Shown here one piece after another: positions 1 to 34,662 of a stretch of 36,522 nucleotides of DNA. Source of the stretch: Limimaricola pyoseonensis (lineage in GTDB: Bacteria; Pseudomonadota; Alphaproteobacteria; Rhodobacterales; Rhodobacteraceae). The stretch covers positions 1 to 36,522 of the forward strand of contig NZ_FNAT01000015.1 of assembly GCF_900102015.1 (NCBI RefSeq), given 5' to 3'. The notes under the pieces were generated by a model. The model searched no databases. It had not been told where the DNA came from and worked only from the letters and a program-made list of their open reading frames with translations. Positions within the stretch are counted from its first letter, which is position 1. Each line of letters begins with the position of its first letter. The position numbers and the translations under genes were made by a program.

Positions 1-303
1 CAAAGCAGGCACACCCACCCGTACGGCGCGGAACCGGACAGGGTCGAAGCCGTTTTGGAAACGCTCGCGAAGAGCAGGTCTCGACGCGGGACAGGCGAGG
101 CCGCGCCCGGGCCGGCGCCCTCGTGACCTTTGCCGGATCCGGGCAGAGATGTTTCTCTCGAAAGTTTCCCGATCGCTCTCGAGGAGCGCCGCGAACCATG
201 CCCCCGGCAGAGGTTTTTCATCTATATTACATAACCTAAGTTATCCGACTTCTCCTTCTCAGGAAACACGGCCCGCTCTCCACCGGAGCGGGCCGCGTGT
301 CGG
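1..303. other. Non-coding left edge, no supported gene
   Basis: I see no convincing gene here. An open frame at 149-427 has low-complexity Ser/Arg content, no ribosome-binding site and runs antisense into the RidA gene, so I treat it as chance. The stretch holds a slightly AT-richer patch (about 219-245) with the short inverted repeat ATAAC-ctaa-GTTAT at 231-244, and the terminator hairpin of the minus-strand operon at 269-295. Confidence 0.5.
269..295 (-). terminator. Hairpin terminator of the oxidase-cytochrome-RidA operon
   Basis: A perfect 10-bp stem (CGGCCCGCTC at 269-278 and GAGCGGGCCG at 286-295) with a 7-nt loop lies 9 bases beyond the RidA stop on the minus strand. Read on that strand it is followed by a short T-containing stretch (GTGTTTCC). 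It is a good intrinsic-terminator candidate, though the T tract is weak. Confidence 0.65.
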
Positions 304-792
304 TCAGGGCCGGACCGCGACCACCTCGATCTCCACCAGCCAGGCCGGGCTGGCGAGGCCCGCCACCTCGACCACCGAGCGGCTCGGCAGGTTCGGCTGG
401 TCCTCGGTGCCGAAGAACTGCGTGTAGCCGTTCATGAAGCCCGAGAAGTCCATCGCCCCGCCCTCTTCCGGCGCGACGAGGAAGACGGTCATCTTCACCA
501 CGTCCGACATCGTCAGGTCGAGGCGCTCCAGGTTGCCTTCGATCGCCTGCATCACCGAGACGGTCTGCGCCTCGGTGTCGCCATAGGCCGCGCGGCTGCC
601 CTGCTCGGCCTCCGTGTCGGTGACGCTCGGCACGGCGCCGCTGAGATAGACCAGCTCGGCATCGGCCGGCAGCTCGACCGCCATCGAGATCGGGAAGTCG
701 GAGTCGGGCAGCGGGTGGCGCGTCACCTCCTGCGCGGTGGCCGGCAGCGCCAGCGCCGCCAGCGCGGCGGCGGCCAGGATGCGCGCGGTCAT
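304..792 (-). CDS. Exported RidA-family (YjgF/YER057c/UK114) protein
   Basis: The product is 162 aa. Residues 1 to about 21 form a signal peptide (MTARILAAAALAALALPATAQ, basic start, Ala/Leu core, AxA-type cleavage). The rest is a RidA fold: the VYLSGAVP strand near the start of the domain, and the conserved Arg and Glu of the enamine/imine pocket in SRSVVEVAGLA and VEIEVVA near the C-terminus. RidA proteins hydrolyse reactive enamines and imines released by amino-acid-oxidising or PLP enzymes and are normally cytosolic. An exported one is unusual but fits its operon: its ATG overlaps the cytochrome c stop as ATGA (789-792), and that gene is likewise coupled to a Tat-exported flavin oxidase. 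The likely role is periplasmic hydrolysis of the oxidase's imine product. The family is clear; export and substrate are inferred. Confidence 0.85.
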   Translation of the reverse strand: MTARILAAAALAALALPATAQEVTRHPLPDSDFPISMAVELPADAELVYLSGAVPSVTDTEAEQGSRAAYGDTEAQTVSVMQAIEGNLERLDLTMSDVVKMTVFLVAPEEGGAMDFSGFMNGYTQFFGTEDQPNLPSRSVVEVAGLASPAWLVEIEVVAVRP

Positions 793-1292
793 GGCCGCAC
801 CGCCGCGACGTCCTCGGCCGTGGCCGCGATGCCGTTCTCGCCCTCGACGTAGTCGTTGCCGAAATGCGAGCGGATGTAGTTGGTGACCTCGGCCACCTGC
901 TCGTCCGACAGGATCCCGCCCAATGGCGGCATCGCCTTCTGCCCGTTGACGATCAGGTAGATCGGGTATTCGGGGAACTCCAGCATCTCGTTCTCGGCCA
1001 GCGCCGGGTACATGCCCGCGCCCACCGCGCCCTGGCCCTCGGGCATGTGGCAGCCCGAGCAGACGGCGTTGTAGATCGCCTCGCCGCTCTCCTGCGTCAG
1101 CATCGCGGAATCGGCGAAATAGGCGAGGTCGCCTTCGGAGGGCTCGAAGGTGCGGAACTGCTCGCGCTGGCCGGATTGCGCGATCTCGCCGCTCTCGGCC
1201 TCGGTCTCGGGCTGCTCCTGCTGCGCGAGCACCGGCAGGGCCGCGCCGAGCGCGAGGCCCGAGAGGATCAGCGTCAGGGGAAGCGGTTTCAT
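789..1292 (-). CDS. Secreted monohaem c-type cytochrome
   Basis: The product is 167 aa. It starts with a Sec signal peptide ([23 protein letters not shown], cleavage before QQEQ). An acidic/Gln-rich linker of about 45 residues follows, then one class I cytochrome c domain with the haem motif CSGCH and a distal Met ligand in the segment KAMPPLGG. Start and stop overlap both neighbours by ATGA (789-792 and 1289-1292), so translation is probably coupled along the oxidase-cytochrome-RidA operon. The likely role is to take electrons from the flavoenzyme to the respiratory chain, in which case the flavoenzyme would work as a dehydrogenase. That pairing is inferred from gene order only. Confidence 0.88.
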   Translation of the reverse strand: MKPLPLTLILSGLALGAALPVLAQQEQPETEAESGEIAQSGQREQFRTFEPSEGDLAYFADSAMLTQESGEAIYNAVCSGCHMPEGQGAVGAGMYPALAENEMLEFPEYPIYLIVNGQKAMPPLGGILSDEQVAEVTNYIRSHFGNDYVEGENGIAATAEDVAAVRP

Positions 1293-2878
1293 TGGGTGTC
1301 TCCCGTGTTGCCGTTGACCACCTGCGCATGCAGGCGCTGCATCGCGTCGAGCGCCGAGAGGATCGCGCCCTCCTGCCAGCCCGGCAGGTATGAGATGTGC
1401 TCGCCGGCCAGCACCACGCGGTTGTCGACCGCGGCCGCGGTCTCGTAATCGGCCTCGCGGTCCTTCCAGATGCCGTAGCAGCCCAGCACCCAGGGCACCT
1501 TGTGCCAGGCCACCGATATGCCGTTCGAGAACTCCTCGGTGTATTGCGGGTGGATGCGGCTGCCGTATTCGACCGCCCATTTCGTCCGCTCCTCGGGCTG
1601 CATGGCGTTGAACTGGTAGGCGGTGGCGCCCCAGACATAGCCGCCCAAGAGCACGCCCGGCCCGTCCTTGAAGAAGTCGTGCGACGGGTAGGAAATCAGC
1701 GCGATCGGCAGGTCGGTGTAGCTGATGCCGCCATAGATGCGCTCGTCCTCCTCCCAGAAGCGGCGCTTGAACTCGAGCCCGAACTTGACCGAGCCCGCGT
1801 AGTACATCGAGTCGATGATCGCGGTCTTGTCGCCCGAGAGGTTGTGCTCGATCTGGCCGAGGATCGAGAAGGGGATGGTGCAGATGCAGTAGTCGCCGGT
1901 GCGGGTCACCTTCTCGCCGTTGTTGGCGAGATCCTCGTATTCGACGGTGACGCCGTTTTCGTCCTGCATCATCGAAACCACCTTGGCGTTGTAGGTGATC
2001 AGGTCGCCGACCTCGCGCTCGAAGCCCTGCGCGATCATGTCCATGCCGCCCTTGGGCTGGAACATGGTGCCCTGGTGATGCGTGGTCTCGGCCTCGACCA
2101 GCCAGGTCCAGAGGTCGGATTGCAGGATCCGGTCGAGCGAAATGGGCTCGGAGGGCACCGGCGCGGCGTCCAGCCCGCCGCCGGGCCATGTCTCGTAGCC
2201 GCGATACTCGGAGGTGTGGTCGGATTTCACGTAGCGGTAGTTCTCGTCGAGCATCCCGTATTCGACGAGGCTGTCGAGCAGCTTGCGCTTGTCCTCCTCG
2301 GTCACCTCCTCGTCGAGCGCGCCCTGGTCGGTGACCTTGGCGAGCAGCTCGGCGATGCGGCCGCGATAGTCGGTCGCGATCTCGCGGTAGCGCTGCGGCT
2401 GGCCGTCGAAGGCCTCCTGCCGGTGCAGGTAGGCGTTGTGGTTCTCCTGGATGAAGGGCTCGAGCTCGACCCCGAGCCGCTTGCAGTAGTCGAGCACCGC
2501 GTAGTGGTGATGCGGGATCCGCCAGGGGCCGGGGTTGAGGTAGTTGCCTTCCGCGAACTCCACCTCCTGCGTGGCGCCGCCCAGCTCGGTGTAGCTGTCG
2601 CCGCCGCGCAGCGTCCAGCAGCGGCCGCCGGCCTTCTCGCGGTACTCGATGATCTCGACCTCGTAGCCCGCGGCGCGCATCTCGAGCGCCGCCGTCATGC
2701 CGGCGAGGCCGGCGCCGAGGATCAGCACCTTGGCGCCCTGCGGGTCGCCCTCGAGCCGGACCGGCCCGGTGTAGCTCGACTCCTGCGCGAAGCCGAGCGT
2801 GGTCATCGCCTGGTACATGGTCGCCGTTCCGGCGGCGAGGCCGACCATCTGCAGCAGGCTGCGGCGTGACATCGACAT
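1289..2878 (-). CDS. Tat-exported FAD-dependent amine / L-amino-acid oxidase family protein
   Basis: The product is 529 aa. A Tat signal (SRRSLLQ at residues 4-10, then a hydrophobic stretch to about 31) precedes a dinucleotide-binding motif GAGLAGMTAALE at about 55-66 and the GGRCWTLRGG FAD-contact segment. The C-terminal LAGEHISYLPGWQEGAI segment is typical of flavin amine oxidases, which bind FAD there. The family oxidises primary amines or L-amino acids to imines. The ATG at 2878 is preceded by GGAGGA at good spacing. It is the first gene of a three-gene operon with a cytochrome c and a signal-bearing RidA. The substrate cannot be read from the sequence; monoamine, polyamine or L-amino acid are all possible. 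Confidence 0.88.
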   Translation of the reverse strand: MSMSRRSLLQMVGLAAGTATMYQAMTTLGFAQESSYTGPVRLEGDPQGAKVLILGAGLAGMTAALEMRAAGYEVEIIEYREKAGGRCWTLRGGDSYTELGGATQEVEFAEGNYLNPGPWRIPHHHYAVLDYCKRLGVELEPFIQENHNAYLHRQEAFDGQPQRYREIATDYRGRIAELLAKVTDQGALDEEVTEEDKRKLLDSLVEYGMLDENYRYVKSDHTSEYRGYETWPGGGLDAAPVPSEPISLDRILQSDLWTWLVEAETTHHQGTMFQPKGGMDMIAQGFEREVGDLITYNAKVVSMMQDENGVTVEYEDLANNGEKVTRTGDYCICTIPFSILGQIEHNLSGDKTAIIDSMYYAGSVKFGLEFKRRFWEEDERIYGGISYTDLPIALISYPSHDFFKDGPGVLLGGYVWGATAYQFNAMQPEERTKWAVEYGSRIHPQYTEEFSNGISVAWHKVPWVLGCYGIWKDREADYETAAAVDNRVVLAGEHISYLPGWQEGAILSALDAMQRLHAQVVNGNTGDTQ

Positions 2879-4400: not shown

Positions 4401-5660
4401 TCAGCGCGCGTAAGGATCAGACAGCGCCGGCAGCACCGTGCCCTCGCAGGCCCCGAAGCCGACCCTGTAGCCCGCGCCCTGCGCGTGGCCCCGCAGGGTC
4501 AGCCGGTCGTGGTCGGCGACGAAGGCGCGGGTCGTGCCGGCCACCGCGATCGGCTCCGCGCCGCCCCAGCTCAGCTCCAGCAGCGAGCCGCGCGCGTCGC
4601 GCGTCGCCCCCGAGATCGTGCCCGAGCCGAGCAGGTCGCCCACCCGCATCGGGCAGCCCGACACGGTGTGATGCGCCAGCTGCTGCGCCGCCGAGTAGTA
4701 GAGCTCGCGCGCATTGGTGCGCGCGATCACCTCGCCCGCCGCGCCCTCGGGCGCCAGCTCCACCGACAGCGCGATGTCGTAGAGCATCGGCCCCGGCTCG
4801 CGCAGATAGGGCAGAAGCTCGCGCGACCGCTCGGGCGCTTCGGTGCGGAACGGCTCCAGCGCCGCGCGGGTGACGATCCAAGGGCCGATGCTGGTCGCCG
4901 TCGCCTTGGCCTGGAACGGCCCGAGCGGCTGGTACTCCCAGGCCTGCACGTCGCGCGCCGACCAGTCGTTCAGAAGCACGTAGCCGAAGATCATCGCGTC
5001 GGCCTCGGCCACCGTGACCGGCCCGTCCGAGGGCTGGCCCACCACCGCGCCGAGCTCCAGCTCGATGTCGAAACGCGCGCAGGGCGCGAAGCGCGGCAGC
5101 GCCTCGTCGGGCCCCTTCACCTGCCCCCAGGGCCGCCGCACCGGCGTGCCCGAGACCACCACCGACGACGCCCGCCCGTTGTAGCCGATCGGGATCGACA
5201 GCCAGTTCGGCGGCAGCGCGTTCTCGGGGCCGCGGAACATGGTGCCCACGTTCTGGGCATGGTGCCGCCCGGCGTAGAAATCGGTGAACTCGGCCACCGC
5301 GAAGGGCAGGTGCATCCGCGCCCCGTCCATCGGCACCAGCAGCGGCTCCAGCCGCGCCGCCTCGGCCGCGCCCTCGGCCAAGAGCTCCGTCAGCCTTGCC
5401 CGGAGCGCGTCCCAGGCCGCCGGCCCCGCCGCCATCAGCGGGTTCCAGGCCCCCTGCCCCAGGAGCGGCCCGCCTTCGAGCAAGATCAGCCCCTCGGCCT
5501 CGGCCGCCGCCACGTCGAGGATCATCTCCCCGATCGCCACACCGCAGCGCGGCGCGCCGCCACCTGTCGAGAACACCCCGCAGGGCAGGTTGTTGAGCGG
5601 GAAGTCGGCCTCCGCGTCGTTGGCGCTCTCGACCCAGCTTCGGCGCAGGCCCTCGCTCAT
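4401..5660 (-). CDS. fahA: Fumarylacetoacetase
   Basis: The product is 419 aa, the usual length for FAH. It hydrolyses 4-fumarylacetoacetate to fumarate and acetoacetate, the last step of tyrosine/homogentisate catabolism. Family blocks visible are [19 protein letters not shown], the conserved [18 protein letters not shown] with its metal and active-site region, and [21 protein letters not shown] near the end. The ATG overlaps the hmgA stop (ATGA, 5657-5660), so the two are translationally coupled. Maleylacetoacetate isomerase, the step between them, is not in this window. Confidence 0.96.
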
Positions 5661-7024
5661 TCCCAGTTGCCCTCGGGCGTGCCGTCGAAGCGCTTCTTCA
5701 GGCTGTCCCAGCAGTCGATGTAGTCGTCCTGCAGCGGCGCCTCCTTCGCGGCGAACTCGGTCAGGTGCTGCGGGAAGCGGGTCTCGAACATGAAGGACAT
5801 CGTGTCGTCGAGCTTGCGCGGCTGCAGCTCGGCCCGGCTCGCGGCCTCGAAGGCCTCGTTGTCGGGCCCGTGCGGCAGCATCATGTTGTGCAGGCTCATG
5901 CCGCCCGGCACGAAGCCCTGCGGCTTGGCGTCGTACTGGCCGTAGATGTTGCCCATCAGCTCGGACATGACGTTCTTGTGGTACCAGGGCGGGCGGAAGG
6001 TGTTCTCGGCCACCATCCAGCGTTCGCGGAACAGCACGAAGTCGATGTTGGCCGTGCCCTCGACGCCGGAAGGCGCGGTCAGCACGGTGAAGATCGACGG
6101 GTCGGGGTGGTCGAACAGCACCGCGCCCACCGGGCAGTAGGTCCGCAGGTCGTATTTCACCGGCGCGTAGTTGCCGTGCCAGGCCACCACGTCGAGCGGC
6201 GAGTGCCCGATCCGGGTCTCGTGGAACCGGCCCTGCCACTTCACCGTGACGGTCGAGGGCGTCTCGCGGTCCTCGAAGGCCGCGACCGGCGTCTTGAAGT
6301 CGCGCCGGTTGGCCATGCAGTTGGCGCCGATCGGGCCGCGCCCCGGCAGGTGGAACTTCTGGCCGTAATTCTCGCACACGAAGCCGCGCGCCGGCCCGTC
6401 CAGCAGCTCGACCCGGTAGACCAGCCCGCGCGGGATGATCGCGATCTCGGCCGGCTCGAGGTCGATCACGCCGAGCTCGGTGCAGAAGCGCAGCCGCCCC
6501 TCCTGCGGCACCACCAGAAGCTCGCTGTCGGCCGAGTAGAAATAGGCGTCCTGCATGCTCTCGGTGACGAGGTAGATATGCGCGGCCATGCCGGCCTGCA
6601 CATGCACGTCGCCCGCCGTGGTCATGGTCCGCATGCCGGTGAGCCAGGTGAGGCGTTCTTCGGAATGCGGCACCGGGTCCCAGCGGTACTGGCCGAGAGA
6701 GGTCACGTCCTCCAGCACGTGCGGCGCCGATTTCCAGTAGGGCAGGTCGATCCGCTCGAACCGGCCGGTGTGCTTCACGGACGGCCGGATGCGGTAGCAC
6801 CAGGTGCGTTCGTTCTGGTGGCCCGGCGCGGTGAAGGCGGTGCCCGAGAGCTGCTCGCCGTAAAGCCCGTAGGCGCATTTCTGCGGCGAGTTCATTCCCT
6901 CGGGCAGCGCGCCGGGCAGCGCCTCGGTCTCGAAGTCGTTGCCGAAGCCGGGCATGTAGCCCGCATGCAGCGCCGTGGCCGCCGCGGCGCGGGTCAGGCC
7001 GGAGATCTCCTCGGTGCCGCTCAT
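5657..7024 (-). CDS. hmgA: Homogentisate 1,2-dioxygenase
   Basis: The product is 455 aa. It opens the aromatic ring of homogentisate to maleylacetoacetate using Fe(II) and O2. The sequence has the N-terminal [19 protein letters not shown] and [19 protein letters not shown] blocks and the iron-site region [16 protein letters not shown]. The start at 7022-7024 (MSGTEEIS) has GGGAG upstream; a longer reading to 7309 crosses the promoter region and is not credible. It is the first gene of the hmgA-fahA operon and diverges from a cytochrome c gene. A TAGTT/AACTA palindrome 38 bases upstream is a candidate operator. Confidence 0.96.
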
Positions 7025-10178: not shown

Positions 10179-11378
10179 TCAGGTGACCTTGGCCCGGGCG
10201 TGGAACTCGGGCCGGTCCCAGCTGCCGCTGTCCAATATCTCGCCCAGCACCTCGGCCGCGCGGTCGAGATCGGCTTCGCCGATATAGAGCGGGGTGATGC
10301 CGAAGCGCAGGATGTCGGGGGCGCGGAAATCGCCGATCACGCCCTGCGCGATCAGCGCCTGCATTACCGCGTAGCCCTCGGGGTGGCGGAAGCTGACATG
10401 GCTGCCGCGGACCGCCCGGTCGCGCGGCGTGGCCAGCACGAGGCCCGGACAGCGGGCCTCGACCGCGGCAATGAAGTGGTCGCACAGATCCTGCGCCCGC
10501 GTCTCGAGCGCGGCGAGATCGCGCCCCTCGAACAGCCGCAGCGCGTCCTCGAGCGCGGTCATCGACAGGATCGGCGGCGTGCCGACCTTCATCCGCTCGA
10601 CCCCCTCGCCGGGCCGGTAGCCCGGGTCGAAGGCGAAGGGCGCCGCATGCCCCATCCAGCCCGACAGCACCGGCTCGACCGTCGCGGCATGGCGCGGCGC
10701 GACATAGAGGAAGGCCGGCGCGCCGGGCCCGCCGTTGAGGAACTTGTAGCCGCAGCCGATCGCGAAATCGGCGCCGCAGGCGGCCAGCTCGACCGGGAAG
10801 GCCCCGGCCGAATGCGCGAGGTCCCAGATCACCACCGCGCCCGCCGCATGGGCCTTCTCGGTCACCGCGCGCATGTCGCGGCGACGCCCCGTGCGGTAGT
10901 CCACCTGCGTCAGCATCAGCACCGCGACGCTCTCGTCGATCGCCGCCTCGACCTCCTCCGAGGGCTTCGCCTCGACCCGCCAGCCTTCGCCGCGGAAGCG
11001 GCAGATGCCGTCGGCGATGTAGAGATCGGTCGGGAAGTTGCCGGCATCCGACAGGATCACCCGCCGCTCGGGGTTGAGCGCCATCGCGGCGGCGAGCACC
11101 TTGAAGAGGTTGACGGAAGTGCTGTCGCCCACCGCCACCGTGCCCGGCTCGGCGCCGATCAGCGGCGCGATCCGCGCCGCCACCCGGTCGGGCAGGTCGA
11201 TCCAGCCGGCGTCGTTCCAGCCGCGCACAAGCTGCGCGCCCCATTCCGCGCCCACGGCGCGCGACAGCCGCTCGGCGGTGCCGCGCGGCAGCGGCCCCAG
11301 AGAGTTGCCGTCGAGATAGACCACCCCTTCGGGCAGGTCGAAGAGGTCGCGCTGCGGCAGGGCGGTGGCATCGGACAT
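10179..11378 (-). CDS. kynU: Kynureninase
   Basis: The product is 399 aa. This PLP enzyme cleaves L-kynurenine to anthranilate and alanine in tryptophan degradation. Visible family features are VVYLDGNSLGPLPRGT at the N-terminus, DLAHSAGAFPVEL with the PLP-pairing Asp, and GCGYKFLNGGPGAPAFLYV with the Schiff-base Lys. The start is preceded by AAGGAG. An in-frame TTG at 11432 would run through the operator region and is rejected. It is convergent with the amino-acid transporter and divergent from a GntR regulator. Tryptophan dioxygenase and kynurenine formamidase are not in the window. Confidence 0.95.
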   Translation of the reverse strand: MSDATALPQRDLFDLPEGVVYLDGNSLGPLPRGTAERLSRAVGAEWGAQLVRGWNDAGWIDLPDRVAARIAPLIGAEPGTVAVGDSTSVNLFKVLAAAMALNPERRVILSDAGNFPTDLYIADGICRFRGEGWRVEAKPSEEVEAAIDESVAVLMLTQVDYRTGRRRDMRAVTEKAHAAGAVVIWDLAHSAGAFPVELAACGADFAIGCGYKFLNGGPGAPAFLYVAPRHAATVEPVLSGWMGHAAPFAFDPGYRPGEGVERMKVGTPPILSMTALEDALRLFEGRDLAALETRAQDLCDHFIAAVEARCPGLVLATPRDRAVRGSHVSFRHPEGYAVMQALIAQGVIGDFRAPDILRFGITPLYIGEADLDRAAEVLGEILDSGSWDRPEFHARAKVT

Positions 11379-11439
11379 CGGGCTCTCCTTCGCGGTTTCC
11401 CCGGTGAAACCGCATGTCGTTCTGGAAATCAAGAATTAT

Positions 11440-31993: not shown

Positions 31994-33061
31994 TCAGCCG
32001 GCCTCCAGCATCTCGGCCCGCTTGCGGCAGAAGCCGACGAAGGCCGCCGTCGGATCGCGCGGCACGTCGCCGGCCCAGGCGCGCCATTCGGCCTCGAGCG
32101 CATGCACGTCGCAGCCCGGCGCCGCCCGTCGGGCCGCGGCATAGGCCTCGGCCGGCAGCTGCGGGATGGCGGTGATCTCGACCGGGCCGCTCGGTCCGCC
32201 GCAGCGGTTGCGGAACACGACCATGTCGGTCTCGTCGTCGTAATCGACGTGGTAGTCCGGCAGGTGGTCGCTCTGCGCCATCTCCTTCATCGTGTGGCGG
32301 AAGCGCTTGAGCTCGGAGCGCGCGCCGGTGCGCATCAAAAGCTTCTCGAGGCTGATCTGCCAGCGCGCCTGGCTGCCGCAGAGCTTGCGGGCGATCTCGT
32401 AGACGCGGCGCTCGATCGGCTTGCGCAGGCGGAAGTAGTCGCGGTGCAGCGTCAGCACCGACTTGCGCCGGATCGAGTTGTAGACCCATTCCGAGAGCTG
32501 GATCTCGGCATGCATGATCCGGCCCGTCTCCTCGTCGCCCTTGCGCACCACCACGGCGCGTTCGATCAGGTGGAACCAGCCGCGCGCCTCCTCCTCGCCC
32601 AGCGGTTCGTCGACGCTGGCGCGGGTGGTGATGTTGGTCTTGATCACCGTGCCCATCAGCCGGTCGAGCGCCTCGCAGAAGGCGTCGTAATCCTTGCCGC
32701 CCGTGCCGCGGTTGACGAAGATCAGCAGGTCGCGCGGGTTGAAGCGCAGCACCCGGTCGACGCTCTCGCCGCGGTTCAGCTTGTGCATGATCTGGCTGAC
32801 AGCGTAGATCAGGATGTCCTTGTCGTAGATCGTCGCCTGCCCCTTGGCCGAGGGAATCACCTCGACCCAGTTGCCGTCATGCTCGTAGCGCCGCACCGAC
32901 ATGTCCGGCTTCTTCGACAGCGCGTAGAAGGGATGCTCCATCGACGGCAGCAGGTCCTTGAGCACCGCCTCGGCGACGTCGCAGATGCTGTAGTCGATCT
33001 GCGGATGCCGATCGGGCAGCAGGTGGTCGAGGCTGCTCTGTTCCGCCTTTTGCTCGCGCAT
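31994..33061 (-). CDS. repA: Plasmid-type replication initiator RepA (Rhodobacterales)
   Basis: The product is 355 aa, matching in length and layout the RepA initiators of Rhodobacterales plasmids and chromids. The N-terminal part has LPSMEHPFYALSKKPDMSVRRYEH and ATIYDKDILIYAVSQIMH. The central winged-helix region has SVLTLHRDYFRLRKPIERRVYEIARKLCG, expected to bind iterons. GAGG lies six bases before the ATG. The first of five iteron-like repeats is only 11 bases upstream, so RepA probably represses its own promoter. It faces allA tail to tail and reads away from the origin. Confidence 0.92.
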   Translation of the reverse strand: MREQKAEQSSLDHLLPDRHPQIDYSICDVAEAVLKDLLPSMEHPFYALSKKPDMSVRRYEHDGNWVEVIPSAKGQATIYDKDILIYAVSQIMHKLNRGESVDRVLRFNPRDLLIFVNRGTGGKDYDAFCEALDRLMGTVIKTNITTRASVDEPLGEEEARGWFHLIERAVVVRKGDEETGRIMHAEIQLSEWVYNSIRRKSVLTLHRDYFRLRKPIERRVYEIARKLCGSQARWQISLEKLLMRTGARSELKRFRHTMKEMAQSDHLPDYHVDYDDETDMVVFRNRCGGPSGPVEITAIPQLPAEAYAAARRAAPGCDVHALEAEWRAWAGDVPRDPTAAFVGFCRKRAEMLEAG

Positions 33062-33975: not shown

Positions 33976-34662
33976 GTGCCCGTCATCGTATTCGCCAACC
34001 CCAAGGGCGGGGCCGGCAAGACCACCGCCGCGCTGATGCTCGCCTCCGAGCTCGCCAGCCGCGGCGCCCGCATCGCCAACCACGACGCCGACACCGAGAA
34101 GTGGATCACCCAGTGGTCGCGCCTGCCGGGCTGCCCGGAGAGCATCGAGGTGGTCTCCGAGATCACCGAGGACAGCATCCCCGACCAGATCGACGAGGCC
34201 GCGCAGCGCGCGCAGTTCGTGATCGTCGATCTCGAGGGCACGGCCAGCCTGATGGTCGCCAACGCGATCGGCATGTCGGATCTAGTGGTGATCCCGACCC
34301 AGGGCGGCAGCATGGACGCCAAGGGCGCGGCCAAGACCGTGAAGCTGATCCGCAACCAGGAGCGCATGGCGCGGCGTTCGCTGAACCACGCGGTGCTGAT
34401 GACCCGCACCAGCGCCGCGGTGGCGAGCCGCGCGCTCAAGAACGTGAAGGACCAGCTCGACAGGGCAGGGGTGCCGGTGTTCCGCAGCGCGCTGGTCGAG
34501 CGCGCCGCCTTCCGCGACGTGTTCGACTATGGCGGCCTGCTGGCCGACCTGCCCGAGGCGCAGGTGTCGAACCTCGCCAAGGCGCGGGCCAACGCCCGCG
34601 AGTTCGCCGCCGAGGTGGTGGCGCGGCTGCGTGAGTGGCAGGACGAGCGGGGGGCGGCGTGA
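33976..34662 (+). CDS. parA: ParA-family partition ATPase
   Basis: The product is 228 aa, a short ParA without the N-terminal DNA-binding extension (type Ib-like). The deviant Walker A KGGAGKTT is at residues 10-17, a Walker B-like strand FVIVDLEG near 80-87 and PTQGGSMDAKGAAKTVKLI further on. The start is GTG 33976 with AGGAG eight bases upstream. The stop shares one base with the next ATG. With its partner and the upstream repeats it forms a partition cassette for the repA replicon. Confidence 0.92.
   Translation: MPVIVFANPKGGAGKTTAALMLASELASRGARIANHDADTEKWITQWSRLPGCPESIEVVSEITEDSIPDQIDEAAQRAQFVIVDLEGTASLMVANAIGMSDLVVIPTQGGSMDAKGAAKTVKLIRNQERMARRSLNHAVLMTRTSAAVASRALKNVKDQLDRAGVPVFRSALVERAAFRDVFDYGGLLADLPEAQVSNLAKARANAREFAAEVVARLREWQDERGAA

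Follow-up and report, generated by a model that had tools for sequence, protein, structure and literature searches.

A three-gene operon of Limimaricola pyoseonensis predicted to encode a periplasmic L-amino-acid dehydrogenase, its cytochrome c and an exported Rid3 protein

Three coupled genes at a contig edge

The window analysed here is a stretch of 36,522 bases from the alphaproteobacterium Limimaricola pyoseonensis (contig NZ_FNAT01000015.1), which begins at the contig edge. Close to that edge, between positions 2878 and 304, three translationally coupled genes on the minus strand encode a flavin L-amino-acid oxidoreductase (FAO), a monoheme cytochrome c and a small protein of the Rid family. 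The original prediction had recognised a flavin oxidoreductase with a twin-arginine translocation (Tat) signal, a signal-peptide cytochrome c and a Rid protein with a signal of its own, and the open reading frames (ORFs), their overlaps and the Pfam domains all agree with that description. The features are listed below, the signals, heme motif, overlaps and repeat as read from the sequence.

1289..2878, minus strand: FAO of the L-amino acid oxidase (LAAO) branch, homologue of lao; 529 residues, starting MSMSRRSLLQMVGLAAGTATMYQAMTTLGFAQ
2786..2878, minus strand: predicted Tat signal region of FAO (SRRSLLQMVGLAAG...GFAQ), with 26 uncharged residues in a row after the RR
789..1292, minus strand: monoheme cytochrome c with a Sec-type signal, homologue of cccA; 167 residues, Pfam PF13442/PF00034
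1047..1061, minus strand: CSGCH heme c attachment motif of the cytochrome
304..792, minus strand: predicted exported Rid3-type imine deaminase; 162 residues, MTARILAAAALAALALPATAQ and then the Rid domain, Pfam PF01042
733..792, minus strand: predicted Sec-type signal peptide of Rid (MTARILAAAALAALALPATA), which satisfies the signal rule given below and is modelled by AlphaFold, at low confidence, as an N-terminal helix apart from the rest
379..381, minus strand: codon of Arg138, the equivalent of catalytic Arg105 of Escherichia coli RidA; Arg in all 55 aligned operon Rids
1289..1292, minus strand: 4-bp ATGA overlap of the FAO and cytochrome genes
789..792, minus strand: 4-bp ATGA overlap of the cytochrome and Rid genes, matched by 8 of 38 relatives measured
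270..294, minus strand: 9-bp perfect inverted repeat 3' of the Rid stop, a possible operon end

A terminator scan downstream of Rid reported no terminator at the inverted repeat. The predicted N-termini read MSMSRRSLLQMVGLAAGTATMYQAM in FAO and MTARILAAAALAALALPATAQEVTRHPLP in Rid, and the Pfam matches are to Amino_oxidase (E = 2.9e-59), Cytochrome_CBB3 (2.8e-14) and Ribonuc_L-PSP (1.2e-17). The nearest relatives bearing names come from Limimaricola, with FAO 90% identical (very near records may lie outside the search).

Besides its Amino_oxidase domain, FAO has L-amino acid oxidases as its closest solved relatives: the top PDB match is an L-amino acid oxidase, 2jae (E = 1.6e-90), and the next matches carry the same name. 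R120, K365 and Y414, which we take to be the carboxylate-binding and flavin-site residues of LAAOs (Arg for the carboxylate, Lys at the flavin), are invariant among the 81 FAOs aligned, and the counterpart of R120 in 2jae is the Arg of GATRIP. Since FAO is LAAO-like, its substrates are expected to be amino acids rather than amines in general, which narrows the "amine/amino-acid deamination" first proposed for the locus to its second half.

The third protein had been called a RidA. It is a Rid-family protein with its own predicted signal, and several features set it apart from RidA proper. It scores 47.4 bits against the NCBIfam RidA model TIGR00004, whose cut-off is 106.25, and it has Ile in place of RidA Tyr17, as do all 55 operon Rid rows aligned, which also keep the equivalents of Arg105 and Glu120. 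The control set consists of 112 other Rids: 105 further PF01042 copies from 15 genomes that carry the operon, and the remaining 7 of the 8 copies in the window genome. The Arg105 equivalent is not shown in 44 of these controls, and Ile and Arg occur together in 3. An isoleucine at the Tyr17 position with retention of the catalytic Arg is the published description of Rid3 (PMC4433059). The nearest solved structures, PSPTO3006 and PFL1385 (PSPTO_3006 and PFL_1385; PDB 9bka and 9bkc), are the best two both by sequence and by fold, the latter from a Foldseek search with an AlphaFold model of mean predicted local distance difference test score (pLDDT) 90.3. They are placed in Rid3 by PMC5619798, where members of that subfamily act in vitro as deaminases on the imines that L-amino acid oxidase produces, and the window protein resembles them in sequence, fold, Ile and catalytic Arg (PMC5619798, PMC4433059). 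On account of these residues, these structural neighbours and the low RidA score, the small protein is by sequence a member of Rid3, although its relatives are annotated "RidA family protein" despite their Rid3 signature.

Distribution of the trio and predicted export of the Rid protein

Of the 244 genomes of the order, 9 carry FAO, one of them being the window genome, and a cytochrome c ORF lies beside it in all nine, so that the adjacency is not a matter of chance. Four of the nine, the window among them, have Rid next in line; one (L011; loci are cited by L numbers) has it joined to the cytochrome, and four have no copy within 1.5 kb. The nine-row FAO alignment was also run against genome contigs, and the best 80 of 586 relatives, at loci of named organisms, make up a second set; by record titles these are mostly Alpha-, Beta- and Gammaproteobacteria, and a few loci belong to both sets, whose counts are not additive. 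Among these 80, every FAO is followed within 1 kb by a CxxCH motif in an open frame, the FAO start is of the twin-arginine type by pattern in 77, and a Rid gene is present in 53, divergent at one locus (L077) and co-oriented behind the cytochrome at 52. The same three-gene order with an apparently exported Rid, which the original prediction proposed to seek in other genomes, does recur. One variant may be mentioned: in L015 the place of Rid is taken by another cytochrome gene, one with two CxxCH motifs, and L053 (Sulfitobacter delicatus), probably the same locus, has no Rid.

Starting from Rid instead, a search of 398 genomes of the phylum with a 34-row Rid alignment (E 1e-25) found 25 Rid3-like loci, spread over 24 genomes of which the window's is one. 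Rid bears a signal at 23 of these, a match to the FAO profile lies in the surrounding DNA of 22 and about 5 kb away or less at the other 3, and a CxxCH ORF stands directly upstream of Rid at 16. The module is real and widespread, and the grouping of exported oxidase, cytochrome c and imine deaminase as one conserved unit, as first proposed, is supported by sequence.

Export of Rid was assessed by a rule that combines a net positive start, a 10-residue uncharged hydrophobic window and a cleavage site, and that takes the best of the in-frame starts, controls included. The window Rid passes this hydropathy and cleavage check, as do 52 of the 53 Rids at the operon loci; L087, which fails it, has a hydrophobic start lacking K or R. 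The rule is satisfied by 7 of the 112 controls. Three of these (L129, L138, L190) look genuine by eye, and in the other four the rule picks up a start that lies within the domain; none of the other 7 Rid copies of the window genome passes. The three apparently exported paralogues rule out that Rid export is confined to this operon. In a tree with the 112 controls all 55 operon rows fall on one side of a branch with a Shimodaira-Hasegawa-like approximate likelihood ratio (SH-aLRT) support of 99, with a warning from the program of long branches. The operon Rids thus appear to form one clade in which predicted export is conserved, and the hydrophobic start is maintained across distant proteobacteria although its letters diverge. 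Some relatives (L081, L220-L223) have a lipobox-like Cys in their Rids.

A further form of the protein bears on its location. Three of 13 genomes in one genus encode a cytochrome c-Rid fusion, a single ORF of 295 residues with a signal, a cytochrome c domain (CAGCH) and the Rid domain. The second and third of these proteins share 85 and 86% identity with the first, and each comes from a one-contig genome, which disfavours a frameshift artefact. Heme c attachment takes place in the periplasm, and for this reason the Rid domain of the fusion is expected there. Given that the fusion occurs in three species, a periplasmic Rid domain is very likely.

Two loci that resemble PSPTO_3006 (L244 and L245) differ from the window in having no Rid signal and no cytochrome nearby. 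Their FAOs have 12 uncharged residues after the RR, as against at least 15 at 79 of the 80 loci and 2 at the remaining one, which hinted at a joint loss of FAO and Rid export. The hint was not confirmed by charge (5 and 4, within the 0-5 of the 80 loci) or mean hydropathy (0.85 and 0.65, around a mean of 0.78), neither of which is outstanding, and with two near relatives it is a lead only.

In the open-access PubMed Central (PMC) literature searched, supplements lying outside the search, no report of an exported bacterial Rid was recognised. The word "periplasm" occurs in neither Rid3 paper, nor "signal" in PMC5619798 or "signal peptide" in PMC4433059. As far as that literature goes, conserved Rid3 export and a heme-tethered Rid form appear to be undescribed.

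Described systems and the proposed pathway

The operon itself has a published counterpart. The window copy belongs to the kind represented by lao-cccA-ridA (GDI2456-2454) of Gluconacetobacter diazotrophicus PAL5 (PMC5053998, 2016), with identical gene order, co-orientation and a Tat-signal LAAO. There, a Tn5 insertion in lao abolishes the formation of indole-3-acetic acid (IAA) from tryptophan and lowers all three transcripts together, and ccm mutants, as cited in the same article, make about 5% of the IAA. Its authors propose that the cytochrome c and RidA assist the LAAO and cite a periplasmic pair from Chlamydomonas; the excerpted text discusses the Tat signal of the LAAO, not export of RidA, and the substrate is tryptophan on the way to IAA. 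In the family of Belnapia mucosa (L050), one printed lao primer matches 2 of 299 genomes, at loci L264 and L265. All six printed G. diazotrophicus operon primers are exact in L265 and five are in L264. L265 also has its three genes arranged as in the window, and ridA_F falls at gene position 142 of L265, as printed, if ridA starts at MVKTMAGAAALAAVLGVGMASPTRAADIVRY. That start is, clearly by eye, a predicted signal peptide, and the L265 protein shares the Rid3 residues with the window Rid, from which it differs in being 49% identical over 148 aligned residues.

In Chlamydomonas, LAO1 and the RidA LAO2 are located in the algal periplasm (PMC10805672). This extracytoplasmic pair deaminates amino acids, as the window proteins would; it differs in belonging to an alga, in making H2O2 and in having no cytochrome gene named in its cluster in the excerpted text. 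The operon and the idea of three cooperating proteins have been in print since 2016 (PMC5053998), and the algal pair is published too (PMC10805672), a correction to the original prediction. Tat FAOs with an adjacent cytochrome c provide a third comparison, many of them being cytochrome c-using dehydrogenases (PMC12224317). With a Tat signal on FAO and an adjacent Sec-signal cytochrome c, by sequence and pattern, the window pair is like NicA2/CycN/Pnao and the other members of that set; it departs from them in its Rid, the set having been found by NicA2 similarity and "rida" having no occurrence in the excerpted text. By 2015, genes for RidA "or sometimes Rid3" had been seen next to those of FAD-dependent amine oxidases (PMC4433059). 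Two further reports touch on these families: OngD is a RidA-family protein whose role is unassigned in PMC9537276, with no signal mentioned for it in the excerpt, and PMC9368920 mentions lao under a fur box.

Gene order, coupling, the signals and their conservation, the LAAO-branch and Rid3 signatures and the cytochrome c-Rid fusion together argue that the trio probably constitutes a periplasmic L-amino-acid:cytochrome c dehydrogenase and imine deaminase module, whose products would be 2-oxo acid, ammonia and electrons for respiration. Location, electron acceptor, substrate, activities and imine clearing are predictions. FAO would be exported folded by Tat to the periplasm, where it would turn an L-amino acid into the 2-imino acid by oxidation. 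The flavin so reduced (FADH2) would hand its electrons to the co-exported cytochrome c and thereby to the respiratory chain, O2 not being the main acceptor. The exported Rid3 protein, likewise outside the cytoplasm, would hydrolyse the released imino acid with water, yielding 2-oxo acid and ammonia. The cytochrome as acceptor is suggested by the published precedents, and the substrates may be L-amino acids, perhaps aromatic, by homology with the tryptophan/IAA operon of G. diazotrophicus.

Several observations weigh against this pathway. Rid is not linked in the DNA around FAO at 27 of the 80 loci (at two of these, L083 and L091, the sequence ends within 0.8 kb of FAO), and among 18 such genomes searched for the exported-Rid clade, 8 have a strong match elsewhere, 1 a weak one and 9 none. 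The 8 strong matches bear a signal, and some lie beside a second FAO. Rid as an obligatory partner is thereby ruled out, 10 of the 18 having no strong match; it is useful to the module, not required. Nine of the 25 Rid loci of the phylum sample have no CxxCH ORF directly upstream, and in five of these (L231, L232, L237, L238 and L240, enlarged as L242-L246) FAO directly precedes Rid. In L242, L243 and L246 both proteins bear signals and no cytochrome is adjacent, the CxxCH motifs found 1-3 kb away in L242 and L243 lying within ORFs of 101 and 120 codons from stop to stop. An apparently exported FAO/Rid pair can therefore exist without an adjacent cytochrome, and may there use O2. Moreover, the best solved homologue, 2jae, carries the name oxidase, "L-amino acid" has no occurrence in the excerpted text of PMC12224317, which leaves the acceptor to analogy, and clade 1 FAO-cytochrome c pairs in that study react poorly with the cytochrome in solution.

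Could O2 be the real acceptor? FAO would then be a periplasmic L-amino-acid oxidase, with the cytochrome serving another role or a side path and Rid still clearing the imine. The cytochrome-less pairs and the name of 2jae fit this reading, as does the fast reaction with O2 of most Tat FAOs tested that lack an adjacent cytochrome c (PMC12224317). However, the cytochrome motif stands behind FAO at all 80 loci and at all nine of the order, a Tat signal with an adjacent cytochrome c coincided with poor O2 reactivity in the same study, and the ccm mutants of G. diazotrophicus lose IAA (as cited in PMC5053998), so O2 as the main acceptor is unlikely, while keeping some weight.

Lower still stands the possibility that the Rid domain is mainly a trimeric scaffold between FAO and cytochrome, or a chaperone, and not an imine hydrolase. 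The covalent fusion would suit a scaffold, imines also hydrolyse spontaneously, and the usual rationale for Rid proteins, the guarding of enzymes dependent on pyridoxal 5'-phosphate (PLP), is not expected to apply in the periplasm. Against it, the Arg and Glu equivalents are invariant in the operon rows, whereas the Arg is not shown in many of the controls, 27 of the 80 operons do without a linked Rid, and Rid3 proteins are active deaminases in vitro (PMC5619798). The least probable reading, to which we give hardly any weight, is that the hydrophobic Rid N-terminus does not function as a signal and that a downstream start, such as the GTG of Val23, leaves Rid in the cytoplasm. Such an in-frame start is available and the N-terminus is predicted from sequence, but the ATGA coupling sits at Rid codon 1, the hydrophobic start persists across distant proteobacteria while its letters diverge, lipobox-like forms occur, relatives have Rid fused behind a heme c domain, and the other seven Rids of the window genome show no such signal. 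Periplasmic imine clearance coupled to cytochrome c reduction is accordingly the reading preferred here.

Genomic surroundings and implications

Genes for homogentisate dioxygenase, fumarylacetoacetase and kynureninase, functions of aromatic amino-acid catabolism, lie near the operon in the window (4401-7018 and 10179-11432, both minus strand). They suggest aromatic amino acids, but as a guide to the substrate these contig neighbours were rejected: a tblastn search with four neighbour proteins against the 80 loci, with flanks of up to 4 kb, gave 0 matches at E 1e-8 and four weak rows at E 1. Further along the window are a gene for replication initiator protein A (31994-33061, minus strand; Pfam RPA, E 2e-75) and one for a ParA/VirC1-like ATPase (33976-34662, plus strand), and the contig looks plasmid-like by its gene content. 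Relatives of the Rid gene are found on 22 plasmid records, with the trio present in both of the two examined.

At other loci, Pfam domains of 56 of 75 picked neighbour ORFs include M20 peptidases in 7 and TonB receptors, S9 peptidases and M28 peptidases in 3 each, among the 25 of 77 families listed. In Bradyrhizobium the gene behind Rid has an exported-type start (L052:6525-7931:+, L054:6502-8019:+, L069:6614-8116:+) and is an M20 peptidase by Pfam in L052 and L054; in Mesorhizobium/Aminobacter (L039, L043, L044, L045) the gene behind Rid has no exported-type start, with Pfam M20 on L039 and L043, and Microvirga ossetica has a gene for an M20 hydrolase in front of the operon. In Xanthomonas/Pseudoxanthomonas the gene behind the exported Rid (L057:6566-7765:+, L071:6551-7750:+, L066:6606-7829:+) is a class I/II aminotransferase by Pfam in L057 and L066, of the histidinol-phosphate type by PDB match in L057. 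With its apparent Tat signal, this aminotransferase is possibly an exported PLP enzyme.

A broader picture can be drawn only tentatively, and we hold it somewhat more doubtful than not: a dedicated exported Rid clade would form the hydrolytic half of a respiratory L-amino-acid dehydrogenase, tethered to heme c in some species, with the imino acid handed over in one periplasmic complex, and with the further apparently exported amino-acid enzymes of some loci, a Tat-type aminotransferase and an M20 peptidase, amino acids would be catabolised in the periplasm.

The usual account of Rid proteins has them protecting PLP enzymes in the cytosol from 2-aminoacrylate. Should a conserved clade of exported Rids indeed be tied to a respiratory amino-acid dehydrogenase, imine clearance would have a use in the periplasm as well. 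The in vivo substrates of the Rid3 subfamily were called unknown in 2015 (PMC4433059); the association gives this subfamily a concrete partner and suggests that the Tat FAO-cytochrome rule extends to the LAAO branch. It would also account for the dependence of auxin production in G. diazotrophicus on both cytochrome c maturation and lao.

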